From an uncultured Prevotellaceae bacterium (GTDB lineage: Bacteria; Bacteroidota; Bacteroidia; Bacteroidales; Muribaculaceae), in the NCBI GenBank assembly GCA_900318645.1, contig ONLH01000028.1, positions 62,001 through 126,000 on the forward strand: a stretch of 64,000 nucleotides of DNA, read 5' to 3'. Below, piece after piece: positions 32,701 to 63,764 of the stretch (its first letter is position 1; each line of letters opens with the position of its first letter). The notes under the pieces are model-generated. The model had not been told where the DNA came from. It ran no database searches and saw nothing but the letters and a program-made list of their open reading frames with translations. A program made the translations under genes and the position numbers.

Positions 32701-32960
32701 ACAACAACGCTACCAGTGACCGCTGGTTGACCAGTGCTTCCTACTTCGTAGTAAAGAACATCACCTTGAGCTACTCAGTGCCCAGACTGTTGATGAACAA
32801 GATTGGTATGCAGGGTCTCACCCTCACTGCTGGTGTTGAGAACCTGGCTACGTTCACTTCCCGCAAGGGTGTGAATCCCCAGTACAGTTTCAGCGGTGGT
32901 TCTGATAACACCTATGTTACCGCTCGCGTGTTTAACTTCGGTCTTCAGTTCCAGTTCTGA
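29778..32960 (+). CDS. SusC/RagA-family TonB-dependent outer membrane transporter (conventional)
   Basis: This 1060-residue protein has a signal peptide (residues 1-20) and a carboxypeptidase-regulatory-like N-terminal domain (ISGQVLDAATGDPLIGATIQ). Next come the TonB-box region SLDEVVVVAYG, the plug domain (LYVVDGVAFDGNI, SVLKDAASAALYGNRAANG) and a 22-strand barrel. It ends normally in the aromatic strand VFNFGLQFQF, with nothing after it, unlike the three SusC copies near 48-61 kb. SusC imports ligands captured by its SusD lid, usually glycans and sometimes peptides. susD follows within 50 bp. No glycoside hydrolase is nearby, so the substrate is unknown. Confidence 0.96.
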   Translation: MKKLFLLLFAMCFMALSAYADRTISGQVLDAATGDPLIGATIQGEGVNHGTATDVNGHFTLVLPDHVKFVNVSYIGYATRQVEVTPNMVVKLTDSGQSLDEVVVVAYGSAKRQSITGSISVVDEKKIKDRIGSSVTAALEGSTPGIQVNNTYGEPGAAPNIRIRGIGSITGSSAPLYVVDGVAFDGNIAEINPVDIESMSVLKDAASAALYGNRAANGVVLITTKKGNYASKPNVTLRINQGLYKRGIAEYDRMGADQWMEASWLAMRNYAMNGSMGLDQATASQYATQHLIGDYARKNIYNAPDDKLFDANGKLIAQILPGYTDLDWEKDVERTGYRQDYSLSGTAGSEKYNMYASAGYTNEKGYIYASAYERFTGRINTNFTPSDWFKAGINLSGTYATRNFNDNATGSYYANPFYVARYMAPVYPLFLHNPDGSFLLDENGEKQYDTKSSYLDNRNIAFELRKDFDRRRRAVVEGMAYGTFTLPFGFSVTLKADFMHSNTNRRRYNNPFIGDGSTNNGRLTSYAYEYNTRTAQEILNWARDFDRHHVDVMLAHENYEYNSRSAYGMNTGSAADGIYTPGNFQTNSYFQGSDDEDKTESYLGRARYNYYEKYFADFSFRRDGSSRFAKDNRWGNFFSFGLNWNIKKENFLQDVNWLDQLRVRASYGETGNNMGVSLYAYQALYYIEKNAGSAAFMKQSLAANDIKWETCQNIDFGIEGRVFDRLNFNFVLFDKRNKDLLFAVPLPLSAGSFVWGDDYNMSIYKNIGTISNRGIEISLSADVIRGRDFNWTLSTEGTFMKSKIKKLPDGKDILHGQQNYSEGHDPYEFYTYHFVGVDQMTGRSLYTLDPDMAERAEAAGQTVTIGDETYTTMPGSYGKRDWAGTAHPWFFGSLNSILNFKGFALNALFTYSLGGKVYDSAYQTLMSTNSASSASANHVDLAKSWNGVPAGMTENSPNRIDPKGIPQLDFENSTYNNATSDRWLTSASYFVVKNITLSYSVPRLLMNKIGMQGLTLTAGVENLATFTSRKGVNPQYSFSGGSDNTYVTARVFNFGLQFQF

Positions 32961-34725: not shown

Positions 34726-34839
34726 TTGTTGTAAACAGGCCTGAAATCGGGTGATGATGCTTGAATAACAATTGTTGTGGTAGCGATTATGGACAATTTG
34801 CTTAAAAAATGAGTATCTTTGCGGCCACATTTTGAAATC

Positions 34840-46865: not shown

Positions 46866-48581
46866 TTACCAACCGGGGTTCTGGCCAATCTCGGGATTCA
46901 GGTTGCGCTGATCGTCGGGAATGGGGAACAGGTTGTACTTGGGATCCCACTTGCGGGGAGCACCGTTGTTCGAGCAGTTGATGTAGCCATCGGGGTCAAC
47001 ATTGATTTCATCAAGGCTGATGGGGCTAAATCCGAGAACGTATGCACCACGGCACAGGTTGGGATTGTTGTCGGTGTCGAGCAACGAGAGCTGGTTCCAA
47101 CGCAGCAGCGAGAAGTAGCGGTCGTTCATGCAGTACATCATCTCGACGCGGCGCTCACGGCGAACCTCCCAAATGATGGGGCTCACGCCCATGTTGTTAG
47201 CGGGATCGGCCTCAACGCTGGTATAGAGGTGAGGCATGCTCACGCGGTCACGCAGCAGGTTGATGGACTTGTCGAGGTCGTTCTGGGTGATGGTACCCAG
47301 CTCGGCGCAAGCCTCGGCATAGTTCAACAGGATCTCGGCATACCAGAAGATGGGAGCGTCGGTCCAGTTACCATAGGTGCTCTGACGGTTGGTGTTGTCG
47401 ATCAGGTTGGTATCGAACAGGAATACACCATAACCCGTCGATGCGGTGGACTGAGCACCGCCGAAGCGGGCGTAACCACTACCGGGGAATTGGAGGATCT
47501 TGTCCACCTGAGCGCTCAGGCGCGGGTCGCGGTTAGCGAGCACGTTGCTGATGTCGATGTGGGGAGCCTCACCCAGACCCGAGTTGTCGTCGAGGACAAC
47601 TACGGTACCGTGGTCGGTCTTGTTCAGAGCGGTGGTAGCCAAGGGCTTGCCATCCTTGAACAGGTAGCTGTCGAAGGCATCCTTGGTCATACCCTTAACC
47701 TGTGTTGAACCGCAGGTGTAGTCGATGGTACCGTGTGCAAGTGTACCCAAAATGTAGTGCTTGTACAGGATCATCTCCTTGTTACCAGCCAGATCAAGCG
47801 AGTTGAAGTTAGCCTGGTAGTTGCTGTTCAGGCTGAAGTTGCCCGAGTTCATGATTTGCTCACAAGCGTTCTTGGCCTCGGTGAGGAACTTGTTGGCACG
47901 GTCATTGTTCTTGGTCACATACTTGCTGTAGTCGCCCTCATAGAGGCAAACCTCGGCCTTCATGGCCAGAGCAACCCACTTGTTGAAAGCGGTGCGTGAG
48001 CCAGCATTGTCGGTGATGTTGGTGCAAGCGAAGTTCAGGTCCTCAAGCACCTTGTCCATCACGTTGTTGCGGGGCTGACGGGGACCGTACAGGATATCCT
48101 CGTCATCGGGGTCAAGCACCTCGTCCACCCAATAGCAGTCACCATAGGCGCGAACGAGTTTATAGTGTTGCCATGCGCGGTACAAGCGACCGATACCCAG
48201 CCAATTGGCCTTCCTGGCATCGCTCATCGACTCAACGCCGGGAATAGCGTCAATGAGAATATTGGCACGACGGATCTCAGTATAGGGCGTGCTCCAAGCA
48301 GCAGCGCTACCGGGAACACTCAGATAGGACCAGTTGGTGATACCAGTAGAGGCCTGGTCGTCGTTCAGCGTGTTGAAATAGTAGTCACCACTGCCGCTTC
48401 CATAACCCGTAAAGGTGTTATAGAAATAGTTGGCGAACAGCTGGACGTTGTTCTCACTGGTAAAATAGTTGTCCTTGGTAAACTGATCATAGGGATCAGT
48501 GTCGAGCACATCTGAGCAAGATACCAGCGACAGCAAGGCAACACCCAGTCCACACAGAATAATTGATTTCAATGATTTCAT
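46866..48581 (-). CDS. SusD/RagB-family outer membrane lipoprotein (minus-strand unit)
   Basis: ATG 48581 (MKSLKSIILCGLGVAL) is chosen over a start nine codons upstream, because this leader is almost the same in two other SusD genes here (56666 and 60893). The lipobox is LVSC. The mature protein of about 550 residues has SusD features: DTDPYDQFTKDNYF early, WYAEILLNYAEACAELG, and the late VRRERRVEMMYCMNDRYFSLLRW block. It lies downstream of the SusC-OmpA fusion, 33 bp after it. Its mature sequence differs clearly from the other SusDs although the leader is conserved. Confidence 0.95.
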   Translation of the reverse strand: MKSLKSIILCGLGVALLSLVSCSDVLDTDPYDQFTKDNYFTSENNVQLFANYFYNTFTGYGSGSGDYYFNTLNDDQASTGITNWSYLSVPGSAAAWSTPYTEIRRANILIDAIPGVESMSDARKANWLGIGRLYRAWQHYKLVRAYGDCYWVDEVLDPDDEDILYGPRQPRNNVMDKVLEDLNFACTNITDNAGSRTAFNKWVALAMKAEVCLYEGDYSKYVTKNNDRANKFLTEAKNACEQIMNSGNFSLNSNYQANFNSLDLAGNKEMILYKHYILGTLAHGTIDYTCGSTQVKGMTKDAFDSYLFKDGKPLATTALNKTDHGTVVVLDDNSGLGEAPHIDISNVLANRDPRLSAQVDKILQFPGSGYARFGGAQSTASTGYGVFLFDTNLIDNTNRQSTYGNWTDAPIFWYAEILLNYAEACAELGTITQNDLDKSINLLRDRVSMPHLYTSVEADPANNMGVSPIIWEVRRERRVEMMYCMNDRYFSLLRWNQLSLLDTDNNPNLCRGAYVLGFSPISLDEINVDPDGYINCSNNGAPRKWDPKYNLFPIPDDQRNLNPEIGQNPGW

Positions 48582-48614
48582 AATTATATCTGTTTTAATT
48601 GAGTTCATTACTAA

Positions 48615-51600
48615 TTACTTCACGATAATTTCGCAGATGGAAACACGGTTCCAGCTCAGTTCATCAAACATGTTGCTGATGCCCTGACCCTGGGCGTTGA
48701 TGCGCTTGGCATCAATACCATACTTCTTGACGAGCATATCCTTCACGCTGGCGGCACGGCCGTTGGCGAGGGTAATGTTACGCTCGAGGGGACCGTCCTT
48801 GGAGGCATAACCGTTGATGGTGCAGGTAGCCTCGGGGTGGCTCTTCATGTAAGCGGCGATGCGCTCAACATTGGGCTGCTGGTCGGCATATACTGCCATC
48901 GAGTTGATGGGGAAGTGAACCAGGATGGTCATGTACTGCAGCGACCTGTCAATCATGCCGCTCTTGCTCTTCTGGCAAGCATCGAGATCCCTCTGGAGCT
49001 GGGTGTTGCGGCTGTTGGCAGCGTTGAGCTGGTTCTGCAGGTCAGCGAGGCGAGCATTGTAGCTGTTCTCGGCATCGGCGAGCTGTGCGCGCAGGTCATT
49101 GATCTGAGCGTTCAGGGCGCTGTTGTCGCCAGGAACGACGACGCCAGAGCGGCTGTTGCTGCCGAAGGTCAGTTGCAGACCACAAGAGTAGGTACGCATG
49201 ATAGGATCGGTACGACCCCAAACTGCGTTACCATAGGAACCCACACCGGTGTTGATCTCGGGATCGAGACCGGTACCGTTGCTGTGGTTGATGATGTCGA
49301 ACAGGTTGTCGGTCGAAGCATAGATGCGCAGCTTCTCGATGAGGACTTTGCGGGTCAAGTGCTGCGGCAGGGTGTAACCCACGGTGATGTTCTTCATGCG
49401 CAGGTAAGCCATGTTCACCAGATACTTGGTCTGGGGATAGAAGTTGAACTTACCCAGATCGAGGATGTCGCTTGAAGCGTTACCACGGCCAGCGCCACCA
49501 GCCCACATGCGGGGGAATTTGGCATTCTGGTCAATCCTCTGTGCGGCATAGTCAGCCTCGGTCACATAGCTGGTCTGGTTGGTATAGATAGCATCGGCAC
49601 CACGCATGAACGGCATCACGAATGCAGACTGGGTCCACATGTCGCGCTTGCCCACGCCCTGCAGGTAGAAGTCAACGTCGAAGCCCTTCCAGGCAGCACC
49701 CAGACGCAGCGAGTACTGATAGCGCGGGGTGAAGTTACCGATGCGCTTCAAGTCACCGTGATCCTCGGGAGTACCCTTACCCCAATCGATGACGCCGTCA
49801 CCATTCAGGTCCTTGAACTTGATATCACCAGGGCCGTAAACAAAGCCATTGGACTCCAGCTTGGTCTGGCTGGCAACGCCAGCGGCATAAGTACCATCAG
49901 CGTTGAAGTCGCTGAAGTTGAAGTAGCGGTCGGTCTCAAAGCCCCAGATTTCGCCATACTCCTTACCAGAGTATTTGGTGTTGATCATGTTGTTGCTGTC
50001 CCACTTGGTGATCTTGGTCTTATAGTCACTTACGATGGCGGTAGCATAGAAATCAACATTGCCGATGCGGTTGCGGTAGTCAACACTGACTTCCCAACCA
50101 CGGGTGCGCATATCACCAGCATTCTCCCATGCGGCACTTGCACCGATGACAGCGGGCAAAGCCTTACCGGGAGCGAGCATGTTCTTGTTTTCACGCTGGA
50201 ACCAGTCGGCGACTACATTCAGGTGGCCGTTAAAGAAGGCGAGGTCAACACCCACGTTGGTGGTTGCGATCTTCTCCCAAGTCAGGGATTCAGAAACCAT
50301 CTTGGGAACACCAAAGAAATCTGTGAGCAAATTATTTGTGCCTAACCAATTAACCTTAGTGCTGCTCTTACCATAGTCCCTGTTCTTCTCCATGGTCTCG
50401 AGGAACATGTAATCACCCACCTCCTGGTTACCGATCATACCATAAGATGCACGGATCTTGGCATTGCTGATGGTATTCTTGATGGGAGCCCAGAAGGCTT
50501 CCTCGCTGATGCGATAACCGATAGATGCCGAGGGGAAGAACGCCCACTGATCCTTCTTGGGGAACTTGCTCGAACCATCATAGCGGCCGTTCAACTCGAG
50601 CAGGTAGATGCCCTTGTAGTCATAGTTGATGCGGCCGAAGAAGCCTGCCGAACCCCAGTGGTTGTGGTGGTGCTCATAGCTGTAGAAGTCATTGGTAAGC
50701 GCCAGTTCAGGCATGTTGAGGTCTTGAAGACCGTGCTGCTCGAAGTAGAGGTACTCCCAATCAGTCTTGTCAACATTGGCACCCACCTTCAGGTTGAAGT
50801 TGTGAGCGTCCTTGATTGAACGGCGCCAGTCGAAGTAACCGTTGGCCACATGGTTCTCAGTGAAGGCGCGTGAGGTCTCGATGAAGGTCGAGCTCGTGAT
50901 GTCCACGGGACCTTGAGGATTCAGACCCCAAGTGTTATAGACTACCGAGGGAAGACCTACGCCTTTATACCTATTGGTCCTCTTGATGAAGGTGTAGTCG
51001 GCATTGAAGCTCAGACCGTAGCCGAAGTCAATCTTGCCAAATACGCCCAGACTCATGTTGTTCATCTTGTAGTAGCAGTCACCACCGGTGTTGCGGCCAC
51101 CAATCATCGTGCGGGCGTCATACTGCTTGCCGTCGTTAGGATCTACAAAGTAGCCGTAGGGGCCGAAGAACGAACCCCAGCGCCACAGGTACTGATAGGT
51201 ACCGGCACCACGCTTGTAGGGGGTGTTATAGGTCCTGTCCACATAGCTGACGCGGGTACCCAGCTCCAACCAGTCGGTAGCGCGTACCGAAACGTTGGCG
51301 GTAGCGTTGTACTTGCGGAACTTGTCGGGGTTGAAGTTCATCAACGACTGCTTCTGGTTGTAACCTACCGAGGTGTAGAAGTTGATGCGGCCCGAGTTAC
51401 CGGTTACACTCAGGTTGTGGCTCTGTGAGGGAGCGGCGTTGTTGAACATGATGCCGGGCACATCCCAGTTGGCATAGTAGCCATATTCATCATAGTCGTC
51501 ACCATAGACCATCTGACGATATTTATCCTTGATGTCGCCATGCTTACTTATCCAGTTGTTCATACCACGAGTGAATTCCTCGCTGTCCAGATACATACCG

Positions 51601-52469
51601 AAGAGCTCGGATGCAACACCCATGCGTTTGTTCACATCATTGAGGGCGCCCACCTGGGTGGGAACGTTGGGATAGTCGGGCAAGGTGGTAGCTTGGCTCC
51701 AAGCGAAGTTGTTGTTGTAGCTCACCCTGACGTTGTCCTTGACGTGAGCGGTCCTGGTAGTGATCAAAACAACACCGAAGGCTGCACGTGTACCGTAGAT
51801 CGAGGTCGAAGCAGCATCCTTCAGGACACTGATGTTCTCGATATCGGCGGGGTTCAGGTCACCCAGACTTTCTACGGGAACACCGTCAACGATGTACAAC
51901 GGGTTAGAAATACCGTCGTTGGACAGCGTACCGATACCACGGATAACAATCGAAGGATCGGCACTGATGTCACCGTTGGCATTCAAGATCGTCAAGCCGG
52001 GAACGGTACCCTGCAGGGACTTACGGACGTCGGTCTCGGACTTGGAACCGAGCACCTTGTCAACGTCCACGGTGCTCACAGCACCGGTCAGGTTGGCCTT
52101 GCGCTGTGTACCGTAACCAACGACTACGATCTCATCGAGATGGGCGTTGTCCTCGGCGAGAACGACGCGCATGCCACTGGTGCCACGCAGGGTCTGCGTC
52201 TTGTAGCCGATAAACGAAACTTGAAGCTTAGCATTAGGGCTAGCTTTGAGCGAGAAGTTACCGTCCACATCGGTCGATGTGCCACGGGTCGTTCCAACCT
52301 CGACAATGCTGGCGCCGATGACGGGTTCTCCCTGCTCATCGACAACACGGCCTGTCACAATGCTGGTGGCGGAACTAGCCGTCACCTGGGGCGCGGGTGC
52401 TGCCTGTGCCTGGTAGCCAGTACCGCACAGCATCAACAATGCGCCCAAAAGAGCTAAATGTCTTTTCAT
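48615..52469 (-). CDS. SusC-family transporter fused to a coiled coil and an OmpA-like domain
   Basis: The start is ATG 52469 (MKRHLALLGALLML). The protein of 1284 residues has a signal peptide, a carboxypeptidase-regulatory-like domain (VTGRVVDEQGEPVIGASIVE), the TonB-box region LDEIVVVGYG, a plug (LYIVDGVPVESL) and a full barrel ending near residue 1100 (CGLQLTFGS). It then continues with a heptad-rich coiled coil (residues about 1110-1165, LNAQINDLRAQLADAE) and an OmpA_C-like domain (about 1175-1284: ILVHFPINS, INGYASKDG, LANGRAASVKDML). After the last barrel strand the chain emerges in the periplasm, so the tail could hold peptidoglycan. The conserved Arg of OmpA_C is present (NGRAASV), but the usual Asp (TD) is replaced by AS. 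Such fusion is not the normal SusC form. Confidence 0.93.
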   Translation of the reverse strand: MKRHLALLGALLMLCGTGYQAQAAPAPQVTASSATSIVTGRVVDEQGEPVIGASIVEVGTTRGTSTDVDGNFSLKASPNAKLQVSFIGYKTQTLRGTSGMRVVLAEDNAHLDEIVVVGYGTQRKANLTGAVSTVDVDKVLGSKSETDVRKSLQGTVPGLTILNANGDISADPSIVIRGIGTLSNDGISNPLYIVDGVPVESLGDLNPADIENISVLKDAASTSIYGTRAAFGVVLITTRTAHVKDNVRVSYNNNFAWSQATTLPDYPNVPTQVGALNDVNKRMGVASELFGMYLDSEEFTRGMNNWISKHGDIKDKYRQMVYGDDYDEYGYYANWDVPGIMFNNAAPSQSHNLSVTGNSGRINFYTSVGYNQKQSLMNFNPDKFRKYNATANVSVRATDWLELGTRVSYVDRTYNTPYKRGAGTYQYLWRWGSFFGPYGYFVDPNDGKQYDARTMIGGRNTGGDCYYKMNNMSLGVFGKIDFGYGLSFNADYTFIKRTNRYKGVGLPSVVYNTWGLNPQGPVDITSSTFIETSRAFTENHVANGYFDWRRSIKDAHNFNLKVGANVDKTDWEYLYFEQHGLQDLNMPELALTNDFYSYEHHHNHWGSAGFFGRINYDYKGIYLLELNGRYDGSSKFPKKDQWAFFPSASIGYRISEEAFWAPIKNTISNAKIRASYGMIGNQEVGDYMFLETMEKNRDYGKSSTKVNWLGTNNLLTDFFGVPKMVSESLTWEKIATTNVGVDLAFFNGHLNVVADWFQRENKNMLAPGKALPAVIGASAAWENAGDMRTRGWEVSVDYRNRIGNVDFYATAIVSDYKTKITKWDSNNMINTKYSGKEYGEIWGFETDRYFNFSDFNADGTYAAGVASQTKLESNGFVYGPGDIKFKDLNGDGVIDWGKGTPEDHGDLKRIGNFTPRYQYSLRLGAAWKGFDVDFYLQGVGKRDMWTQSAFVMPFMRGADAIYTNQTSYVTEADYAAQRIDQNAKFPRMWAGGAGRGNASSDILDLGKFNFYPQTKYLVNMAYLRMKNITVGYTLPQHLTRKVLIEKLRIYASTDNLFDIINHSNGTGLDPEINTGVGSYGNAVWGRTDPIMRTYSCGLQLTFGSNSRSGVVVPGDNSALNAQINDLRAQLADAENSYNARLADLQNQLNAANSRNTQLQRDLDACQKSKSGMIDRSLQYMTILVHFPINSMAVYADQQPNVERIAAYMKSHPEATCTINGYASKDGPLERNITLANGRAASVKDMLVKKYGIDAKRINAQGQGISNMFDELSWNRVSICEIIVK

Positions 52470-52586
52470 AAGCACGTTTTAATTTGTTAATATTTAGTGA
52501 GTTAATTCAATAAGTTTGCTATCGTAAACTGCCGCTTCACGCACGTGAGCGCATTTGAGTTCAGTTAATCGCTTTTTAGTAAGGTG

Positions 52587-52772: not shown

Positions 52773-52914
52773 CCTACTTAAAACCCGCTATAGCCATTAG
52801 GCAATAGCTAAAAGCTATTAGTTGGCCTCCGCTAAAATTGAGTATTGCGACAAAAGATAAGAGATAATAAAGTCAGTAAATTTCAATTTTTTATAAATTT
52901 TAAACTAAGTGCGT

Positions 52915-54096
52915 ATGAAAAAACAATTAGCACTGTTGGCCGCCCTGGCAATCGCCTGCGGAGCACCGGCTGGGATGACATCGCTTCCCAGTACGGGTTT
53001 CACAGCCGAGGCCCAGGCCAACAAAGTCTCTGGCGTCATACGTGACGCCCAAGGTGAGCCTCTCATCGGCGCGACCGTCAAGGTCAAGGGTACCAACCGC
53101 GGTACCGCCACCGATGTGGACGGCAAGTATTCAATCAACGCCAATCGAGGTGACGTGCTCGTCATTTCCTACGTGGGCAGTAAGCCCATGGAGGTTACCG
53201 TGGGCAGCGGTGTCATGGACATTGACATGGCAGCCAATGACCAGGTCCTCGACGAGGTTGTTGTAACCGCACTCGGTATCCGCAAGGACAAGAAGTCGCT
53301 GGGTTATGCAGTTGACGACTTGAAGGCCGAGGAACTGATGCGCAACAAGAGCGCAAACGCCATCAACTCCCTGTCGGGTAAGATTGCTGGTGTTAACATC
53401 ACCCAGTCGTCTGGTGCTGCCGGTTCGGGTGCACACATCGTGCTACGTGGCGGTACTTCGGTCAGCGAGAATTACGACAATCAGCCGCTGTTCGTTGTCG
53501 ATGGTGTCATCTACGACAACTCGGCAGGTGTTGTAGGTAACTCAGCATTCGATGGTATGATGAACAGTGCCACCACCTCTTCTAACCGTGTGATGGATAT
53601 CAACCCCGAGGATATCGACAATATGTCGGTACTGAAAGGCCCGGCCGCATCGGCCCTCTATGGCTCGCGTGCTGCCAATGGTGTTGTAATCATTACCACC
53701 AAGAAAGGTAAGGAAGGCCACTCTGAGGTGAACTTCTCAGGTAAGATGATCCTTTCGACCGTGGCTAGTCTGCCCAAGTACCAGAATGAGTACGTTCGCG
53801 GTTATATGACCGATATGTACGAGAAAGGTGCTGACGGCAAGAGTGTTTGGACTGGTATGGACATCAAGGACGACAGCTACAATTCATGGGGTCCCAAGAA
53901 TACTTCTGTTCCCTTCTATGACAACCTGAAGAACTTCTTTGAGACCGGTGTCATTTGGGATACCAACCTGAGCGTTAGCGGTGGTACCAAGAACAACAAC
54001 TTCTTCCTGAGCGGTTCATTCTACGATCAGGACGGTATCGTTCCCACCACGGGCTACACCAAGACGACCTTCCGCTTCAACGGCTCCCAGCGATGA
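52915..54096 (+). pseudogene. SusC-OmpA gene, 5' part (frame broken at 54096)
   Basis: ATG 52915 (MKKQLALLAALAIACG) is preferred over GTG 52909. The signal peptide is followed by the regulatory-like domain (VSGVIRDAQGEPLIGATVKV), VLDEVVVTALG, the plug (FVVDGVIYDNS, SVLKGPAASALYGSRAANG) and the first barrel strands. The frame ends at TGA 54094-54096 after FRFNGSQR. The next part of the barrel is continued in the +2 frame (54098). Family comparison suggests that some tens of residues are missing between FRFNGSQR and DDMRHYLNEDG, so an out-of-frame deletion is more likely than a single base error. As written the product would be a 393-residue plug without a barrel. Confidence 0.85.
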
Positions 54097-54097
54097 C

Positions 54098-56566
54098 ATG
54101 CGTCACTACCTGAACGAGGACGGAACGCGCTATCGCATGTTCGGTGACCAGTTCCAGCCCTGGGACGAGCGTGACAACCCCTACTGGATTGTTAACAAGA
54201 ACAAGATGACCGATGATACCGAGCGTTTCACCGGCAACTTCAACGTGAAGTGGGATCTGTTCGACTGGTGGTGGCTGAGCTACCGCATGGGTGTCGATAG
54301 CTATACGACCCAGAGCCACAATACAATCGCTCCCGGTGGCGCAATCAAGCAGATCTGGCAGAAGGGTATGTTGAGTGACAACATGTACAAGTATCGCTAC
54401 CTGAGCAACAACCTGATGTCGAACTGGGGCAAACAGTTCGGTGACTTCAACGTCAACTTGATGTTGGGTGGTGCTACCGAGTACACCAAGACCCGCCGTG
54501 ACTATGAGTCGGCTTGGAACTTCGCCGTGCCTGAATTCTATAGCTACAACAATGCCAGCGATGCTGACAAGAAGTTTAGCCACAGTACGAGTCGCAAGCG
54601 TCTGGCTTCACTCTTCGGTGAGTTCCGCATCGACTGGCGCAACGCCATCTTCCTGACCGTTACTGGCCGTAACGATTGGGATTCGACCCTTCCCAAGGAG
54701 CACTGGAGCTACTTCTATCCCAGTGTGAGTGGCGCTATCGCCTTTACCGAACTCTTCCGTGAGAGCCTGCCCGACTGGTTCTCCTTCGGTAAGATCCGTG
54801 CCAGCTGGGCTGAGGTAGGTAAGGGTACCAGTCCCTATGAGACAGGTACAACCTTGTGGCCAGTAAGCACTTTCCTGGATGGTCTGATGGGTCTGGGTAA
54901 CAGCTGGACTCGCGGTAACCCCTATTTGAAGCCTGAGACCACCCGTTCAACCGAGGTTGGTCTTGAGTTGCGCTTCATCCAGAACCGCTTGAAATTTGAC
55001 ATTGCTTACTATACCAACAACTCATACGACCTGATTCTGTCACCGCGTGGCCCGCAGTCAACCGGTTACATCTTTACCTCCTACAATGCAGGTAACGTTT
55101 ACAACAAGGGTCTTGAGATCAGCCTGAGTGGTACCCCCATCCAGCATGAGAACTTCATCTGGGAAACCGGTATCAACGTCTATGGCAACCGTGGCACAAT
55201 CGACAATCTGTATGCTGGTATGGACATTATGTACGTGACCGATGTACAGTATGCTGGTGCTAAGGCTGCAACCTTCAACGGTAGCAACTTCATGGGTATC
55301 TCTGGCACCAAGTGGAACCGTAATGCCGATGGCAAGTTGATTCTTGACGCTAACGGCTTCCCCACCGAGGATAAGAAGCAAGATGCATTTGAAGTCGGTG
55401 ACCGTGAGCCCAAGTTCCAGGGTGGTTGGAACAACACCTTCACCTTCTTCAAGAACTGGACCTTCAACATGTTGTGGGAGTTCCGTTATGGCGGTGACGT
55501 CTTCAACGGTACCAAGTATGCCATGTCGATGAGCGGTGTAAGCGCACTCTCTGGCGACTGGCGCAACGATCCCCTCACCATCGAGGGTGTATTCCAGACG
55601 GGTACAGATGATAGTGGCAAGCCCATCTATGAGGCTGTATCCAACACTTGGAAAGCTGATCAGAACTACATCTTTAATGGTGTCGAGACTAGTGGTTCTA
55701 CCATTATCCAGAACTACTACACTGGTGCTTATAATTATGAGACCCGCAACTGGATCACTAACGTGAAGAGCCTGCGTCTGCGCACCATCTCTTTGACCTA
55801 TGATGTTCCCCGTAGCTTCCTGGCCCGCACCAAGTACATCAAGCGCGCTTCAATCACCGCATCTGCCAACAACCTGTTGCTGTTCACCAACTATGACGGT
55901 GATCCCGAGGTGGCTGCTGCAGGTGCTGGTGTCGGTGGTTCGTCATCGGTAGGCTTCGACTACTGCGGCGTTCCCGCTACCCGCTCTTATGCTGTGGGTA
56001 TCAACCTGGTATTCGGTACCGATGATGTTGCTCCCGCTCGTGTGAACAACGTTGAACTCGACCTCTTGAATGGTCAGATCAACGATCTGCGCACCCAGCT
56101 GGCTAACTCTCAGAACGCAAGCAATGCACGCATCGCACAGCTCGAGAACGACTTGGCTGCTGCTAACCGCGCTCTGACCAACTGCAAGAACGACCTGAAT
56201 GCTGCCAAGAATGTTGCTCCCAAGGTGGTTGACAACAGCAAGCAGTACATGAACATCCTGGTTCACTATCCCAAGTCAGGTACCAGCATTACCGCTGACC
56301 AGCGTGCCAACGTTGAGCGTATTGCCACGTACATGAAGAGCCATCCCGAGGCCACCTGCGTTATCAAGGGTTATGCTTCGCCCGAGGGCAAGGAGGATGT
56401 TAACGTCAAGCTCGCTAACGGCCGTGCCGCCAGCGTGAAGGATATGCTCGTCAAGAAGTATGGTATCGCTGCCAACCGCATCAAAGCCGAGGGTCAGGGT
56501 ATCAGCAACATGTTTGACGAATTGAGCTGGAACCGTGTTTCCATCTGTGAGATCATCGTGAAGTAA
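54098..56566 (+). pseudogene. SusC-OmpA gene, 3' part: barrel, coiled coil and OmpA-like domain
   Basis: This is the second part of the broken susC. In the same frame upstream of ATG 54098 the codons read A-P-S-D-D, joining the typical DDMRHYLNEDGTRYRMF segment, so the ATG is an internal Met, not a true start. The barrel runs to AVGINLVFGTDD (near 56020), then comes a coiled coil (LLNGQINDLRTQLANSQ) and the OmpA-like domain (MNILVHYPKSG, IKGYASPEG, LANGRAASV). If translated by itself it would lack a signal peptide and plug. susD follows 99 bp later. Tail sequence nearly matches that of the 59664 remnant. Confidence 0.85.
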
Positions 56567-56665: not shown

Positions 56666-58342
56666 ATGAAATCATTGAAATCAATTATACTGTGCGGTCT
56701 GGGTGTTGCGATGTTATCACTCACCTCTTGCAACGACTGGTTGGATGTGAACGTGGATCCCAATAACCCCACGGACAAAATCACAAGTTATGACCAGCGT
56801 CTGGCGCACATTGAGTTCTATACCAATAGCGGTTTGCAGTTCGGTGCTTGGCGTACCACCATGGCCATGGGTGACTGGACCCGTAACAACGGTGGCGGTA
56901 ACTACTGGCACGTTTCCTATTGGTATCCCGTTGAGGGCCAGGTAACCACTGTTTATCAGTGGTGGTTCGTTGGTGCATACGCCAACGTGCCTGACATGAT
57001 TACTAAGGCCGAGGCCGCCGAGAACTGGCAGTTTGCCGGTGCCGGCTACCTGATCAAGGCTTACGGCTTTATGGCCATGACCGACCTCTATGGCGAAATG
57101 CCATATGAAGAGGCTGCCGCTGACAGCCCTGCTCCCCACTACAATACGGGTAAGGAAATTTATTTAGGTTGCTTGGAGACCATCGACAAGGCCATCGAGT
57201 ACCTTGAGAAGGGTCAGAGCCAGGATCCCAGCCTGCCCACTCTCGCTGCTGGTGACTTCTGGAACCATGGCGATCTGAACAAGTGGATCAAGCTCGCCTA
57301 CATGCTGAAGGCCCGCTGGATCAACAAGTTGAACAAGAAAGGTGCCGGTAGCTACAAGGATGGTAAGTATGACGCTGATGAGATCCTGCGCTGTCTTGAC
57401 AAGGCCATGCAGAGCAATGCCGACAACACCATCGTGAACCACACCGACGACAACGGCCCCACGCACGACGTGCTGGGTTGGGATGAGCCCGTTGACTACT
57501 CGCCCCTGTTCTCGGTTAGCGGTATGAACTCCGGTTACATGGCTACCAAGATGCTCTATGACAACCTGACCAACTTCGCTGGTAAGGGTGTCGAGGATCC
57601 CCGTGCCGACCACATCCTGCCTTGGGCTTACAGTCCCAATAGGAGCGAAGTTGGTGTTGATGCTGCCGGCATCAAGTGGAATGGTCACTGGCGCCGTACG
57701 CTGGGCGTTGACATGGCCAGCGAAATCAATAGCCAAGGTGGTCCCCTGCGCGCCATGTTCAACACGACGACCAACAGCTGGTACATCAACAGTTCCAACG
57801 AGGCCCGCAAGGGTGATACTGTCTATATCGAGGGTACCAGTGACTGCAAGGGTTACTTCGCTAATCCTAGCATCCTGTACTGCCGCGCCGGTAGTGGCAA
57901 GTTTGAGTCGGCTGAGTCTGGTACGTTCTATACCCGCGTAAGCTCGCCCACCTACATCGGTACCTATGCTGAGTGCTGCTTCATCAAGGCTGAGACCCTC
58001 TTCAAGAAGGGTGACAAGGCTGGCGCTTACGAGGCCTACAAGAAGGGTGTCAAGGCTAGCTGCGAGCTGATGAATGAAAAACTTGAAGCATGGATTGCCG
58101 AGGATGCAAGCCTCGCTGACTGCCCGTCGTTTACCCCGATGACCGATGAGGCTATCGACAACTTCGTGAACAACGGTATCGGTACACAGGCTGAGTTGAC
58201 CATTGGTCACATCCTGATGCAGAAGCGCATCGCCCTCATGTTCTCCTATGAGATCTGGAACGATATGCGCCGCTATGACTTCGATCCCAACATCTTCTTC
58301 GGTTGGTCGATTCCCGCTGTCGATTCCCGCTTACCACTATAA
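56666..58342 (+). CDS. SusD-family lipoprotein, frameshifted near its C-terminus
   Basis: The leader MKSLKSIILCGLGVAM ends in lipobox LTSC, as in the SusD at 46866-48581. The mature protein has SusD features: DWLDVNVDPNNPT early, helical repeats, and EIWNDMRRYDFDPN near the end. After GWSIPA the frame reads VDSRLPL and stops at 58342. A perfect 13-bp tandem duplication (58306-58318 and 58319-58331) causes this: removing one copy gives GWSIPAYHYK and joins the frame ending at 58559. The native form would have 627 residues or so. Loss of the last 70 residues probably impairs the SusD fold, which includes conserved C-terminal strands. Confidence 0.9.
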   Translation: MKSLKSIILCGLGVAMLSLTSCNDWLDVNVDPNNPTDKITSYDQRLAHIEFYTNSGLQFGAWRTTMAMGDWTRNNGGGNYWHVSYWYPVEGQVTTVYQWWFVGAYANVPDMITKAEAAENWQFAGAGYLIKAYGFMAMTDLYGEMPYEEAAADSPAPHYNTGKEIYLGCLETIDKAIEYLEKGQSQDPSLPTLAAGDFWNHGDLNKWIKLAYMLKARWINKLNKKGAGSYKDGKYDADEILRCLDKAMQSNADNTIVNHTDDNGPTHDVLGWDEPVDYSPLFSVSGMNSGYMATKMLYDNLTNFAGKGVEDPRADHILPWAYSPNRSEVGVDAAGIKWNGHWRRTLGVDMASEINSQGGPLRAMFNTTTNSWYINSSNEARKGDTVYIEGTSDCKGYFANPSILYCRAGSGKFESAESGTFYTRVSSPTYIGTYAECCFIKAETLFKKGDKAGAYEAYKKGVKASCELMNEKLEAWIAEDASLADCPSFTPMTDEAIDNFVNNGIGTQAELTIGHILMQKRIALMFSYEIWNDMRRYDFDPNIFFGWSIPAVDSRLPL

Positions 58343-58559: not shown

Positions 58560-58582
58560 TCCCCCACTCCATCTGAAAACAA

Positions 58583-58620
58583 CGTCCGCCGAGGCAAAAA
58601 CGCCCCGGCGGCGTTTTTTT
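58583..58620 (+). terminator. Terminator after the frameshifted susD
   Basis: CCGCCGAGGC pairs with GCCCCGGCGG (one mismatch), followed by GCGTTTTTTTT. It is nearly the same as the terminator at 63727, again pointing to duplication of the whole unit. Confidence 0.88.
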
Positions 58621-58686: not shown

Positions 58687-58831
58687 GATGCAGACGCCCG
58701 GAAGGCAGCCCTCTGCGTATCCCGCGTGGAGTCAGGTATGAGTGATGTAGACGCCCGAAGGGCGGCCCTCTGCGTATCCCGCGTGGAGTCAGGTTTGGGC
58801 GATGTAGACGCCTGAAAGGCGGCCCTCTGAG
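58687..58831. repeat. 57-bp tandem repeat of REP-like units
   Basis: Two full and one partial copies with a period of 57 bp start at 58687, 58744 and 58801 (GATGYAGACGCC, then GGCNGCCCTCTGMGTA). Each holds a short palindrome around GACGCCCGAAGGGCGGCC. The third copy is the outer edge of the left REP of the transposase unit. Confidence 0.75.
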
Positions 58832-58942
58832 TAACCCGTGGTACCTGCCACCGTAACGAGCGTAGCGAGTGCAGGGGCAGGCACCACGGGAGAAGCGATA
58901 CAAAATAAATGTCGCTGGAGGCGACCCCACTGCCAGGCATGT

Positions 58943-58974
58943 CTTGTGTAGTTGCAGCATTCTGTGTACCTTTG
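58943..58974 (+). promoter_or_regulatory. Promoter of the Y1 transposase gene
   Basis: CTTG (58943-58946), 20 bp, then TACCTTTG (58967-58974) match the Bacteroidota consensus. ATG 58982 follows after 7 bp, so the transcript would be nearly leaderless. Confidence 0.65.
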
Positions 58975-58981
58975 CTCCATC

Positions 58982-59431
58982 ATGAGTTATACCCATCTTG
59001 TCTATCATATCGTCTTTCGTACTCATCGCAGCATCCCTGCTATTGATGAGCAGCATGAGCGGGATTTGTATGCCTATATTCACGGCTACATTATGAAACA
59101 TAAGGCGAAACTATATCGCATTGGCGGTATGCCTGATCATATCCACATGCTTGTATCAATACCCCCTGATATAGCGGTTTCAGAGTTCATACGAGGACTG
59201 AAATATGCTACAAGCAATTGGTTAAAACATAACCCTTTATTTCCTTTGTTTTCAGGCTGGGGTGAAGGATATGCCGCTTTCACCTACTCCAAGGAGCAGA
59301 TTCCAGTGGTAAAACAATACATCATCAATCAGAAAGAACATCACCACAAGACCACTTTTGCCGAGGAGTATAGGCAGTTTATCCTAGAAAATGGCGGTGA
59401 GATTAATGAGGCTTATTTCCTGAAGGACTGA
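58982..59431 (+). CDS. IS200/IS605-type Y1 transposase, REP-associated (RAYT-like)
   Basis: ATG 58982 (MSYTHLVYHIVFRTH) is preferred over the start 30 bp upstream, which overlaps the promoter. The 149-residue protein has the single-strand HUH nuclease core: H53 and H55 in MPDHIHML, and the expected catalytic Tyr at 113 in VVKQYIINQKEHH. GWGEGYAAFTYS is also typical of this family. It has no TnpB partner. Inverted REP-like repeats on both sides suggest a RAYT. It may cut and join single-stranded REP sequences. The gene appears intact. Confidence 0.93.
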   Translation: MSYTHLVYHIVFRTHRSIPAIDEQHERDLYAYIHGYIMKHKAKLYRIGGMPDHIHMLVSIPPDIAVSEFIRGLKYATSNWLKHNPLFPLFSGWGEGYAAFTYSKEQIPVVKQYIINQKEHHHKTTFAEEYRQFILENGGEINEAYFLKD

Positions 59432-59663
59432 CACTGATGGGGTCGCCAGTTATATTAGGCATGTAACCGGTGGTGCCTGCCACTCACTCGCTTCGCTCGT
59501 TGCGCTGGCAGGTACCACCGGTTACTCAGAGTGCCGCCCTTCGGGCGTCTTTTCCGCATGGCATGATGTCTCGGTGCAGTCGTAGCGTATTACGCTCATC
59601 CATCGGTTGTTACTCACGCATAATTCCTGTCATTGTTCTCGCCCAGCGGGCGAGCCTCTGAGT

Positions 59664-60794
59664 AACCGTGAGCCTAAGCTGCGCTTCGGTTTCACCACCG
59701 CCCTGAGCGTGAAGAACTGGCGCCTGAGCGCTATGTTCCAGGGCCGCTACCATGCCGACGTTGTCAACGCTACTATGCGTGACATGTTGGGCACCGGTCT
59801 TAACTGGCTGTCGGTTGACATGCGTGAGAAGGGTTTCGTAGTGTTTGACGGCGTGCTCTACGACGGCAAGCAGGAGAGCGACAATCCCACCAAGAACACC
59901 ATCGCCGTTAACCTGGGTGAGTATGGTTCATATACCTACACCGGTGGTGATGAGGACTGGATCCAGCACAAGATCAACTACATCCGTTGCCAGGAGCTGC
60001 GTTTAGCCTATGTGTTCCCGCACAACTGGCTGAACCGCGTGACCAAGGGTACGGTACAGAACGCCAGCATCTATGCTTCGGCCAACGACTTGTTCACCAT
60101 CACCAACTACACGGGTACCGACGTTGCCGGTAACACCCTGTCGGCTGCTGCCGGTGGTACCGGTGGTGAGGGCTACGACTGCTGGTCGCTGCCCACCCCG
60201 CGTAGCTACTCTGTCGGTCTGAGTGTGACCTTCGGTTCCAACGACGAGGCTTCCAAGCCCGTTTACACCAACACCAACGTCCTCAATGACCAGATCAACG
60301 ACCTGCGTGCACAGCTCGCCAACGCCGAGAACAACTTCAACGGCCGTCTGGCTCAGCTGCAGAACGACCTCGACGCCGCTAACCGCGCGTTGAACAACTG
60401 CAAGAGTGACCTGATCGCTGCTAAGAACGCACCTAAGGATATTGCCACCAAGGTGGTTGACAACAGCAAGCAGTACATGAACATCCTGGTTCACTATCCC
60501 AAGGCTGGTACCAGCATCACCGCCGACCAGCGTGCCAACGTTGAGCGTATCGCTGCCTACCTGAAGAGCCATCCCAATGCTACCTGCGAAATCAAGGGTT
60601 ACGCTTCACCCGAGGGCAACCAGGAGAATAACATCAAGCTCGCTAACGGCCGTGCCGCCAGCGTGAAGGACATGCTCGTCAAGAAGTATGGTATCGCTGC
60701 CAACCGCATCAAAGCCGAGGGCCAGGGTATCAGCAACATGTTTGACGAATTGAGCTGGAACCGTGTTTCCATCTGTGAAATCATCGTGAAGTAA
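59664..60794 (+). pseudogene. Truncated SusC: last barrel strands, coiled coil and OmpA-like domain
   Basis: Homology to SusC begins at REPKLRFGFTTALSVKNW (59667 onward; compare DREPKFQGGWNNTF in the neighbouring susC). Only about the last 190 barrel residues remain (to GLSVTFGSND near 60240). The coiled coil (VLNDQINDLRAQLANAE) and complete OmpA-like domain follow (MNILVHYPKAG, IKGYASPEG). The signal peptide, plug and most of the barrel are missing. The open frame extends upstream to TTG 59607 through REP sequence, but that start has no leader. The REP end CTCTGAGTAACC directly precedes the homology, so loss of the 5' part may be linked to the RAYT unit. Confidence 0.85.
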
Positions 60795-60892: not shown

Positions 60893-62779
60893 ATGAAATC
60901 ATTCAAATCAATTATACTGTGTGCGCTGGCTTGCATGACGTTGGGCTTGGCATCCTGTGACGATTATCTGGATGTGAACAAAAATACCGACGCTCCCGAC
61001 TATGTGGAGGGCTACCTCTACCTGGCCGGCATTCAGCAGGCCTATCAGGGCATCTACTGGGACCTGCGTGCCATCGCCCCGCTCACCCAGATGATGGGTA
61101 CTTCGAGCTACACCAATTTTGCCAACCACTACTACACCAAGGCCAGCGATGCCGGTGGTGAGGCTTGGCGTATGGTTTACTGGAACCAGGGTATGAACCT
61201 GGAGAACATGATCAACCAGAGTGTCGAGGCCGAGAACTGGACATTGGCAGGTATCGGCCTGGCCATGAAGGCTTTCTCTTGGGACCTGTTGACCAAGGTC
61301 AATGGCGAGGCTCCCATGAAGCAGGCCTATGAGGCTGGACGTCTCTCCCACGAGTATGACTATCAGTACGATATCTATCCCCAGGTGCGCGAGTGGGCTT
61401 ATCAGGCCATCGAGTATTTGCAGATGGAGGACAATTCGGCCTATGGTAACCGTATCAAGAACAACGACTACATCTATGGTGGCGACAAGGAAAAGTGGAT
61501 TAAATTCGCCTACGCCGTTATTGTCCGCAACCTGGCCTCGTTGAGCAACAAGAAGGACTTCTCTGAGAAATATCTTAGTGAGTTCATGGACGCTTTCCAC
61601 AAGTCTTTTGCCAGCAACGATGACAATGCTACCTTGAAGATTGCCGGTGGTGGCGCCGATGCTGCCGAGAGCGGCTATAACAACTTCTGGGGTACTTACC
61701 GTGGCAACCTGGTTTACAGCTACTTCCAGCACGACTATGCCGTGCAGTTGTTCACGGGTACCATCCGCAAGTATGACGAGCAGGGCAACTACATCCAGAC
61801 CGAGGATACCCTGCCCCTGAACAAGCAGCACTATCCCTATCAGCTGCTCGACAAACAGATTACTAGCGACACGCTGCCCGATGCCGGTCACTTCGATCCG
61901 CGTCGCCTCGTGAAGCTGGCTACGACCGACAGCAGCAATTATGCCACTATCGCCGACCGCGAGGTGCTCCGCAGCCTCTACTACGTGGGTTCGGGCTTCA
62001 CTGGCGCTACTGGCCCCATCGGCACTGCTCCCTCGTTCTGGGGCCGCAATGCTACCAGCAACACCACCTATGACGGTGCTGGCCACTGGCTCTACTACGA
62101 CAATGCTCCCTACATCATGACCACCTATGCCGAGCTGTTGTTTGACGTTGCCGAGGTGCTGTTCAAGTATGGCAGCAAGGCCGATGCCTTTGAGGTTTGG
62201 AAGCAGGCTTTGCAGGCCGATATGGACTTCACTGCCAGCTATATCGTTCCCGGTACCTTGAACGGCAACTACCGTCAGGGCGACCGTGTGACCAAGGCTA
62301 CCTTCAACACCCTGGCTCAGGAATACCTGAATGGTCCCTACGTGGCAGGTCTGCCGCAGAGCGAATTCTCACTTTCGCACATTATGATGCAGAAGTATCT
62401 GGCCATGTATCCTTGGGGCGCTATCGAGACTTGGGTTGACCTGCGCAAGTACTTCTATGATATCAAGTACACTGGCGATTATCCCAAGTATGGTAACGGT
62501 TGGGACAGGACGACCCTCGACCAGAAGTTGGATACCGATCCCACCAAGGTTTACAAGGGATTCTGGCTGCAGCCTGCACAGGTACAGGGCCGCAAGAGCG
62601 CCTTCAATACCGACAACAACGGTTCGCCTTGCTTCCGCCTGCGCCCGCGCTACAACTCAGAGTACATGTGGAACAAGACCAACCTGGATGCTCTCAAGCC
62701 CATCGGAGGTCAAGAGCTTGATTACCAGTGCTCTATCATGTGGTTCTGCTATCCTGGTGATATGCCTACTACAAGATGA
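60893..62779 (+). CDS. SusD-family outer membrane lipoprotein (partner of the truncated SusC)
   Basis: The leader MKSFKSIILCALACMTLGLASC carries a lipobox (LASC). The 628-residue protein fits the SusD-like/SusD_2 subgroup: DDYLDVNKNTDAPD early, YNQ/MNLENMINQSVEAENW, helical repeats, and AIETWVDLRKYFYD...RLRPRYNSEYMWN near the end. It appears intact although its susC is truncated, so its normal partner is lost unless it pairs with another SusC. A DUF4397-like lipoprotein follows 33 bp later, completing a three-gene unit. Confidence 0.94.
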   Translation: MKSFKSIILCALACMTLGLASCDDYLDVNKNTDAPDYVEGYLYLAGIQQAYQGIYWDLRAIAPLTQMMGTSSYTNFANHYYTKASDAGGEAWRMVYWNQGMNLENMINQSVEAENWTLAGIGLAMKAFSWDLLTKVNGEAPMKQAYEAGRLSHEYDYQYDIYPQVREWAYQAIEYLQMEDNSAYGNRIKNNDYIYGGDKEKWIKFAYAVIVRNLASLSNKKDFSEKYLSEFMDAFHKSFASNDDNATLKIAGGGADAAESGYNNFWGTYRGNLVYSYFQHDYAVQLFTGTIRKYDEQGNYIQTEDTLPLNKQHYPYQLLDKQITSDTLPDAGHFDPRRLVKLATTDSSNYATIADREVLRSLYYVGSGFTGATGPIGTAPSFWGRNATSNTTYDGAGHWLYYDNAPYIMTTYAELLFDVAEVLFKYGSKADAFEVWKQALQADMDFTASYIVPGTLNGNYRQGDRVTKATFNTLAQEYLNGPYVAGLPQSEFSLSHIMMQKYLAMYPWGAIETWVDLRKYFYDIKYTGDYPKYGNGWDRTTLDQKLDTDPTKVYKGFWLQPAQVQGRKSAFNTDNNGSPCFRLRPRYNSEYMWNKTNLDALKPIGGQELDYQCSIMWFCYPGDMPTTR

Positions 62780-62812
62780 TGTTTTATTAATTGATCTAAA
62801 AATTCAATGACT

Positions 62813-63685
62813 ATGAAATTTTTCAAATATATAGCATTATTGCTGCTGGTAGCAGTGACGATGGGCTCCTGTGAAAAGAAGGATGTCTCCTATATGGCAG
62901 AGCCCGTTGACGAGTCGGCAAAGGCATACATCCAGGTCGGCTACTATGAGCCTGTGACCGCCGGTGCAGCCAATTATATGTACTATATCGACATCAATGG
63001 TGTCGAGTATGGCAATGATGGTGCCACCTTCCTGGCTACCTTCAATACGGTTCCTTCGGGCGGTACCAATCGCTACTATGCTGTCGATGCCGGCAATGTC
63101 AACCTCAAGTTGCACAAGCGCGTGAGCGATGGCAATGGCGGTTATACTTATCCTGTGGTTTATGATCAGAACGTGTCCGTCGAGGCGGGCAAGCGCTATT
63201 GCTTGTATGTACATGACTTGAACAAGGCGCCTATCCCCATTGAGATGACTCCTGCTCCCGAATTTAGCAAGGCCCTCGATACCGACTCGCTGTGCCGCGT
63301 TCACTTCGTTAACCTGCTCTATGAGGCTGACGGAACGCCCTACACCGGCAAGGTACAGTATGGTGTCCAGAATCTGGATACCAAGGAGTATGAGCCTGTG
63401 GGCGAGCCTATTGGCTTCGGAGAGAGCACCGATTGGTTCACGGTTAAGATCCGCAAGACCGTTTACAACAGCTCTGGTTCACAGCGTCGTGAGGTTTGTC
63501 TCTTTGCCGTGGATAACGCTGGTAAGGTAACTGGCAAGCTCCCCTACACCTTGTCTAACGGCAATCAGGGTGAGTTTACCGACTACTGGACCTGGTACAT
63601 CGGTCGTGCCTATCGCCAGATTGCCGCCGGTAACTGCGGCAGCAAGACCATCCGTTGCACCCTCTACCAGTTCGTGATCGAGTAA
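62813..63685 (+). CDS. Lipoprotein with DUF4397-like domains, putative surface binding protein
   Basis: ATG 62813 (MKFFKYIALLLLVAV) is chosen over 62807 as the better leader start; lipobox MGSC. The mature protein of about 270 residues has two beta-sandwich halves. The first resembles DUF4397 (YMYYIDINGVEYG, YYAVDAGNVNLKL, VSVEAGKRYCLYVHDL). The second has VHFVNLLYEADGTPYTG and CLFAVDNAGKV. Position after susD fits surface glycan- or ligand-binding lipoproteins of SusCD operons. A terminator follows. Ligand unknown. Confidence 0.8.
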   Translation: MKFFKYIALLLLVAVTMGSCEKKDVSYMAEPVDESAKAYIQVGYYEPVTAGAANYMYYIDINGVEYGNDGATFLATFNTVPSGGTNRYYAVDAGNVNLKLHKRVSDGNGGYTYPVVYDQNVSVEAGKRYCLYVHDLNKAPIPIEMTPAPEFSKALDTDSLCRVHFVNLLYEADGTPYTGKVQYGVQNLDTKEYEPVGEPIGFGESTDWFTVKIRKTVYNSSGSQRREVCLFAVDNAGKVTGKLPYTLSNGNQGEFTDYWTWYIGRAYRQIAAGNCGSKTIRCTLYQFVIE

Positions 63686-63726
63686 TGACAGAGTAGGGCA
63701 CTACCCTACCCTATTATCCATTAAAA

Positions 63727-63764
63727 ACGTCCGCCGAGGCATTCAGCCCCGGCGGCGTTTTTTT
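63727..63764 (+). terminator. Terminator of the last SusCD unit
   Basis: CCGCCGAGGC pairs with GCCCCGGCGG around ATTCA, followed by GCGTTTTTTT. It is nearly the same as that at 58583. Confidence 0.88.

Follow-up and report, generated by a model that had tools for sequence, protein, structure and literature searches.

Three loci in the window analysed here (the whole stretch of 64,000 nucleotides from contig ONLH01000028.1, GCA_900318645.1) combine a SusC-type outer-membrane transporter with a C-terminal tail made of a heptad-patterned linker and an OmpA-like domain, and each of the three is directly followed downstream by a SusD gene. In Bacteroidota most nutrient entry runs through SusCD importers, and the usual picture of them is a barrel that ends in the membrane. 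Copy 1 (48615..52469, minus strand) is an intact SusC-linker-OmpA fusion with matches to TIGR04056, PF13715, PF07715, PF00593 and PF00691, starting at the ATG at 52469 or, in the same frame, at the GTG at 52475. It scores 804.7 bits against TIGR04056 (residues 40-1104 on model positions 3-981; cut-off 368.25) and 58.9 bits against the signature TIGR04057 (cut-off 46.2). The N-terminal domain and plug of the TonB-dependent SusC type are present, together with the stretch LDEIVVVGYGTQ, which we take to be TonB-box-like. The protein continues for about 190 residues beyond the barrel end, contrary to the expectation that a SusC/RagA protein ends at the last strand; such an ending is not part of NCBI's definition of TIGR04056, and the standard used here is the tail-less relatives. 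The last barrel strand (49161..49202, minus strand, residues 1092-1105 counted from the GTG; a strand in the AlphaFold2 model) is followed by the helical heptad linker (48966..49121, minus strand, residues 1119-1170, a 52-residue helix in the model) and the OmpA-like domain (48618..48938, minus strand, residues 1180-1286; PF00691 at residues 1188-1268, 2.3e-11). The SusD partner of copy 1 (46866..48608, minus strand) belongs to SusD_RagB / SusD-like_3 in Pfam.

The original prediction of three SusC copies prolonged by a heptad tail and an OmpA domain holds as far as the tail is concerned, since PF00691 is found C-terminally above its cut-off of 27.2 bits in copies 1, 2 and 3 (44.4, 45.5 and 50.8 bits), but the extents of copies 2 and 3 had to be corrected. 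Copy 2 had been placed at 54098-56566 alone. This plus-strand frame contains the barrel, linker and OmpA domain (54098..56566; PF00593, PF00691 1e-11; barrel end, linker and OmpA at about 55988-56563), while profile matches put the N-terminal third, with the carboxypeptidase-like domain and plug, in another plus-strand frame at 52909..54096. Copy 2 has the same SusC-linker-OmpA architecture, but near 54,096 its coding sequence passes into another frame. Copy 3 (59607..60794, plus strand) is not a whole SusC copy: only the 3' third of the fusion is left, matching TIGR04056 positions 816-981 and PF00691 (2.3e-13), with barrel end, linker and OmpA at about 60207-60791. Its open frame covers 59586-60791, the first listed start being at 59607, and no 5' part adjoining it was found in its own genome. 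The SusD partners of copies 2 and 3 (56666..58342 and 60893..62779, both plus strand) are of the SusD-like_2 type (PF12771, 1.6e-29 and 7.5e-25). As predicted, the ordinary SusC at 29778..32960 (plus strand) ends normally, its last residue matching the final position of TIGR04056, and has no PF00691 match.

In the genome to which the window belongs, 13 loci score above the SusC cut-off, namely copy 1 and 12 others, all of which stop at the barrel. The OmpA domain is matched at 10 loci, 9 of them above the cut-off, and coincides with a SusC match at only 3, all on contig C58. The stand-alone OmpA gene of this genome (L130:2949-4140, contig C25) is itself split by a frame change in the linker region, either by mutation or by sequencing error, so that frame breaks are not confined to copy 2.

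Relatives were sought among named genomes with the copy-1 tail, which gave 143 pattern matches, 95 of them encoding a relative; the best 80 were kept and correspond to 77 loci in 37 assemblies (grouped by contig prefix). Of the 77 loci, 67 have the tail within an open frame of 1,150 aa or more, and they come from 36 of the 37 assemblies. Two of them (L044 and L118) run past the 5' edge of the fetched stretch, and the SusC identity of all 67 was taken from alignment with copy 1 rather than from a profile scan of each protein. Eight of the remaining 10 loci run past a stretch edge, and L105 and L109 do not. The nearest relative, RUG362 (contig ONJS01000008.1), has three unbroken copies (L042, L099 and L093) with open frames of 1287, 1285 and 1252 aa, of which L042 is the orthologue of copy 1 and equals it in length. 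The assembly titles name Muribaculaceae, Prevotellaceae, Porphyromonadaceae or Bacteroidales, and 7 of the 37 give gut sites (goat, roe deer, water buffalo, sheep), 22 have RUG codes, which presumably stand for rumen genomes, and 8 have a read-archive number only. Within the SusC types described below, median dN/dS is 0.12-0.19 in the OmpA part, 0.18-0.22 in the linker and 0.08-0.28 in the barrel; the tails are under purifying selection. These results confirm that the SusC-OmpA fusion is genuine, conserved and under purifying selection. At one of the loci, a second SusC-sized open frame (L069:7773-11141) leaves the locus and matches only the barrel-end and linker of the tail (query 1-74); it is perhaps another fusion at a contig edge.

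The genus of the window is, at a guess, GTDB's Sodaliphilus in the family Muribaculaceae. A profile of the last 490 residues (A1, 19 rows) finds a barrel-into-tail match at E 2.9e-188 or better in 38 of 101 genomes of the genus. There is a clear score gap to the other 63, where the best match is 8.6e-90 or weaker and the matches listed are SusCs stopping at the barrel end or stand-alone OmpAs. At the family level (198 genomes, 16 of them of the genus), tailed frames of at least 1,000 aa were found, among the matches listed, in 5 genomes, all of the genus. No SusC-sized frame running from barrel into tail was present outside the own genome among the matches listed for the order (393 genomes, to 1e-40) or the class (395 genomes), where up to four candidates were scored per genome, so that foreign fusions, chiefly those with a different tail, could be missed. 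Several matches in the order begin in or just past the last part of the barrel (from position 278 in G003), in frames of 379-424 aa, which is the size of a stand-alone OmpA. Tail-less homologues in closed genomes, which the original prediction had counted against the fusion, were encountered in part: G173, a genome of this genus in one contig, gives 6.9e-76 at best, within the tail-less range, and sister SusCs from the genus end at the barrel. Such homologues in the genus suggest that the tail was gained in one clade, and the fusion itself is not refuted by them.

By barrel identity, the 67 proteins fall into five types, T1 to T5, with 15, 13, 11, 12 and 16 members; copy 1 is of type T5 and copy 2 of type T2. 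Mean barrel identity between types is 23-32% (52% for T4/T5), while the linkers share 46-79% and the OmpA domains 77-88%. Tail-less sequences adjoin each of the five types in a barrel tree of 52 rows, made by a quick method from 25 of the 67 fused barrels (the first five per type) and 27 tail-less ones. They are L158-L160 and L162 near T4, L166-L169 near T5, L161 and L163-L165 among T2, L172 from another family with T1, and L177 and the 29778 SusC of the window with T3. This tree requires the "no tail" label to change 7 times, and gains seem likelier than losses because the tails diverge only shallowly. A single fused ancestor that duplicated was rejected as the sole history, considering the mostly 23-32% identity of barrels against 77-88% of OmpA domains and the tail-less relatives beside each type.

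The tails have a different history. In a midpoint-rooted tree of 97 tail rows (67 fused and 30 stand-alone, 94 distinct), the 67 fused tails form one clade (100/94). It groups at 100/98 with stand-alone OmpAs (L127, L128, L129) from three genomes that also bear the fusion, and this whole group is nested inside the OmpAs of the genus. Homology of the 191-residue tail query with stand-alone OmpA starts at residue 23-24 and continues onward. A model of the stand-alone OmpA (mean pLDDT 71.4) shows eight strands followed by a helix of 44 residues and then the OmpA domain, with best fold matches that include 3td3, 3td4, 3td5 and OprF 5u1h. These results indicate that the tail, an approximately 60-residue linker plus OmpA domain, corresponds to the periplasmic half of the OmpA of the same bacteria, and from the tail tree and the models together the SusC barrel has in effect taken the place of the eight-stranded one. 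Some rows carry the tail of another type, e.g. L073 (T5) and L069 and L072 (T2), which points to exchange of tails between types; these misplaced rows are where older exchanges show. Ongoing strong gene conversion within genomes found no support, the between-type synonymous difference of the OmpA part being 0.36 within a genome (39 pairs) and likewise 0.36 between genomes (1748 pairs).

The transferred segment seems to extend past the SusC stop codon. We compared the signal peptides and mature parts of the downstream SusDs (81 rows entered; L083 was dropped, having no lipobox). Behind tailed T1, T4 and T5, the SusD begins with a signal peptide like that of T2, although the mature protein tracks its own SusC type. 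Tailed T4 shares with tail-less T4 a mean identity of 0.40 in the signal and 0.52 in the mature part, against 0.74 and 0.20 with tailed T2; the corresponding values are 0.44 and 0.70 against 0.73 and 0.26 for T5, and 0.37 and 0.74 against 0.67 and 0.30 for T1. The SusD of copy 1 has this T2-like style of signal peptide, as judged on its homologues. No T2-like signal was found for T3 (0.43 with tailed T2), whose sole tail-less comparator is distant (mature part 0.27). The same pattern is visible in DNA within RUG362. Identity of T5 and T2 rises from 0.41 over the late barrel to 0.81 over the final 300 nt of SusC, is 0.77 across the SusD signal and falls to 0.49 further on; T5 and T1 give 0.48, 0.77, 0.68 and 0.47 for these four stretches. 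The tail-less T2 relatives L161 and L165 have the same signal style as tailed T2, so that T2 is the likely donor of the cassette; at a guess, T2, which is BT_2264-like, was the first carrier of the tail. Considering the single tail clade, the five divergent types, the tail-less neighbours and the shift of the SusD signal, we suggest that a 3' cassette was probably captured a single time and that other SusC genes later received copies of it.

The linker has a median length of 61 residues in the 67 homologues. Its 3.5-residue periodicity exceeds z = 2 in 62 of them (lowest value 1.7), and the 48-residue core is free of proline in all 67. An AlphaFold2 model of copy 1 (residues 102-1286, 24 rows), although of low confidence, agrees with the predicted arrangement: the last barrel strand (991-1004 of the fragment) is followed by a 52-residue helix and an alpha/beta OmpA-like domain, with pLDDT of 64-83 in 8 of the 12 blocks of this domain and 40-51 in the other 4. 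The 22 best Foldseek matches of the whole model are all SusC/RagA-type transporters. When examined as an OmpA/OprF porin, the fusion lacks the N-terminal 8-stranded barrel and has the SusC barrel. That the barrel-end strand becomes internal, as the original prediction pointed out, is no oddity of the fusion: OmpA likewise has the barrel first and the periplasmic domain last, in agreement with the stand-alone model.

The binding pocket has the motif GYAS-x-[D/E]-G or similar. Serine takes the place of the classical Asp in all 97 rows, an acidic residue (Asp or Glu) stands two positions later in 97/97, and the conserved pocket Arg, whose retention had been predicted, is likewise kept in 97/97; we take the residues of the diaminopimelate pocket to be D271 and R286 of A. 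baumannii OmpA. The replacement of GYTD by GYAS is not peculiar to the fusion, given that GYAS is invariant in 26 aligned stand-alone OmpA proteins (picked as good tail matches). An adaptation specific to the fusion was thus rejected, and the Ser is inherited from OmpA. The six other OmpA-domain loci of the own genome (L001, L002, L003, L008, L009, L010) retain the Asp.

A wall-tethered SusCD complex is, we infer, the most economical reading of these data. We consider it fairly probable that these are SusCD importers onto which the periplasmic half of OmpA was grafted once, was then recombined onto five SusC types, and now ties them to the cell wall. The graft would have been placed after the last barrel strand of a SusC, once, in one clade of the genus, and would then have been recombined onto further types, five in total, in three of them along with the signal peptide of the next SusD. 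At 1.5 A per residue, the 52-residue helix could span about 8 nm of periplasm, so the OmpA domain may be able to reach and grip peptidoglycan, giving the importer the kind of hold on the wall that the barrel of OmpA has. The OmpA-type domain would bind peptidoglycan, and the complexes might, as originally proposed, be fixed in position or stabilised against TonB pulling. Verhoeven 2013 reportedly deals, by its title, with the absence of long-range diffusion of OmpA. Likely benefits, which are not separated here, would be more contacts between outer membrane and wall, importers kept from shed vesicles, and a brace against TonB pull. The fuller version, in which a mobile 3' cassette made up of the OmpA linker and domain, the intergenic region and the signal peptide of SusD turns existing SusC genes of five types in one clade into wall-anchored importers, braced against TonB and doubling as staples, is tentative, a fair candidate that we would not yet call probable.

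Several points count against this reading. The classical diaminopimelate Asp is replaced by Ser in the 97 fused and stand-alone rows, and peptidoglycan binding could be weaker or directed elsewhere as a result. The mean pLDDT of the fusion model is just 55.6, with linker blocks at 32-60. The barrel tree, with its quick method and its 25 of 67 fused barrels, comes with a program warning of meeting long branches, and each of the 7 label changes could be a gain or a loss. The signal peptides compared are short, unrelated SusD pairs reaching 0.33-0.56 identity in them; T1 and T3 have one tail-less comparator each. The source sequences are mostly metagenome assemblies, and the function is read from sequence and models as regards binding, expression and localisation.

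Among the alternatives, the one that survives best is that the tail serves the envelope, an abundant SusC being used as an extra OmpA-type wall staple with import unaffected; it deserves attention, even if we find it somewhat unlikely. The derivation of the tail from OmpA fits it, as does its presence on several types of SusC whose closest solved structures differ (BT_2264 for a T2 copy, the dextran-utilisome SusC for copy 1), because the identity of the barrel would be immaterial and several types would be expected. According to passages of one report, pal genes of Bacteroidetes were not detected in one genome database and PorE is a proposed tether (PMC12204202), and part of another presents the OmpA Fjoh_0697 as an anchor of the outer membrane to the wall (PMC12611786). 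However, the three fusion-bearing genomes looked at (G187, G164, G180) retain their stand-alone OmpA, the own genome has six further OmpA-domain loci and is therefore not short of possible tethers, and most SusC genes lack the tail (in the own genome, 12 tail-less loci above the cut-off stand against the 3 copies of C58).

That the tail keeps importers in the outer membrane and out of vesicles through wall tethering is less probable again. Portions of the literature link vesicle packaging to envelope contacts and propose for E. coli that peptidoglycan or inner-membrane links lower entry into vesicles (PMC8284480). Yet the SusC of B. thetaiotaomicron is described, in part of one study, as retained in the membrane together with BT_0418, other SusC-like proteins being in membrane and vesicles (PMC6222051); with SusC mostly retained already, the tail seems unnecessary for this purpose. 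Still more doubtful is a domain that no longer binds peptidoglycan and docks instead on TonB/ExbBD or PorE, or whose coil pairs two SusCs. The Ser at the classical Asp position in 97/97 rows would agree with this, and the linker of one stand-alone OmpA weakly matches the trimerising coil TolA_bind_tri (17.9 bits, below the cut-off of 30.1), but the Arg and the acidic residue two places on are kept throughout, an OmpA-type fold is predicted, and the stand-alone OmpAs of the family share the same Ser form. An assembly artefact or chance joining of neighbouring genes, which the broken copies 2 and 3, the possibility that similar tails mislead assemblers and the 8 of 10 shorter loci ending at the edge of the fetched stretch might have favoured, is rejected with practical certainty, as the original prediction had argued, given that 36 assemblies provide 67 open frames no shorter than 1,150 aa, that the RUG362 copies are unbroken and that dN/dS stays far under 1 in all three parts (barrel, linker, OmpA).

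As for the neighbouring features, an IS200-like Y1 transposase gene (Y1_Tnp, 58952..59431, plus strand; PF01797 1.6e-24) adjoins the truncated copy 3, and upstream of it a 57-nt unit stands three times in tandem (58687-58857; identity to the first unit 100, 88 and 61%). A G+C-rich stretch with a terminal T run occurs twice, at 58578-58619 and 63723-63764 (71% identity); these are perhaps transcription terminators. The gene at 62807..63685 (plus strand) encodes an accessory lipoprotein with a weak match to DUF4397 (PF14344, 0.00044, 21.2 bits, below the cut-off of 30.6). An invertible divergent promoter between copies 1 and 2 was considered and set aside: the best inverted repeat by length (35 nt, 83%; 52441-52475/52909-52943) falls on the starts of both genes and has the look of two related stretches coding for signal peptides. 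No sugar-cleaving enzyme was found among the seven window proteins that were profile-scanned, a subset of the neighbours. A long MscS-type mechanosensitive channel gene (34819-37311, 830 aa) comes directly after an ordinary SusCD pair, and downstream of the window three consecutive genes (L134:9781-17691) encode large, similar secreted proteins of 935, 956 and 592 aa that look, by eye, like M6-type metalloproteases.

The repeated grafting onto unlike SusCs, kept by selection, suggests that wall attachment is useful for an importer, and natural pairs of tailed and tail-less sisters are available for testing it. If the reading is right, nutrient uptake machines would double as staples between outer membrane and peptidoglycan, braced against TonB pull, in a single group of gut bacteria that come mainly from ruminants. 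Recombination would then also be building new importers, through the exchange of 3' modules that span the border between SusC and SusD. There is a bearing on how the outer membrane is linked to the wall in Bacteroidota, where pal genes are reported as not detected in the portion of the source concerned (PMC12204202).

We found no SusC-OmpA fusion in titles or abstracts among the matches listed from the open PMC literature, subscription papers and supplements being outside its scope, and the passages cited here describe none either. Known SusC/RagA proteins (BT_2264, the levan and dextran SusCs, RagA) have the same N-terminal domain, plug, barrel and adjoining SusD as the fusion. The solved structure closest to L099, the intact T2 relative of copy 2, is BT_2264 (8.9e-110, matched to residue 1092), and that nearest to copy 1 is the SusC homologue 8aa4 of the dextran utilisome (1.5e-97). 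The solved chains end 4 residues (BT_2264) and 10 residues (RagA) past the matched stretch, whereas the fusion has about 190 more, forming linker and OmpA. The nearest relatives of the tail are in the OmpA/OprF-type 8-stranded porin of the same bacteria, with a homologous linker and periplasmic domain, the fusion having a SusC barrel in place of the 8-stranded one. Among solved structures, the best sequence relative of the tail is the OmpA domain of A. baumannii (3td3-3td5, 2.2e-10); the Arg is common to both, while the tail has Ser for the pocket Asp and an acidic residue two positions later. As an anchor, the OmpA of Flavobacterium johnsoniae is described, in the part of the source at hand, as joining outer membrane to cell wall (PMC12611786). 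PorE and Pal, as presented in sections of PMC12204202, combine an outer-membrane anchor with an OmpA-like wall-binding domain as the fusion does, but their anchor is a lipid, and that of the fusion is an integral importer barrel.

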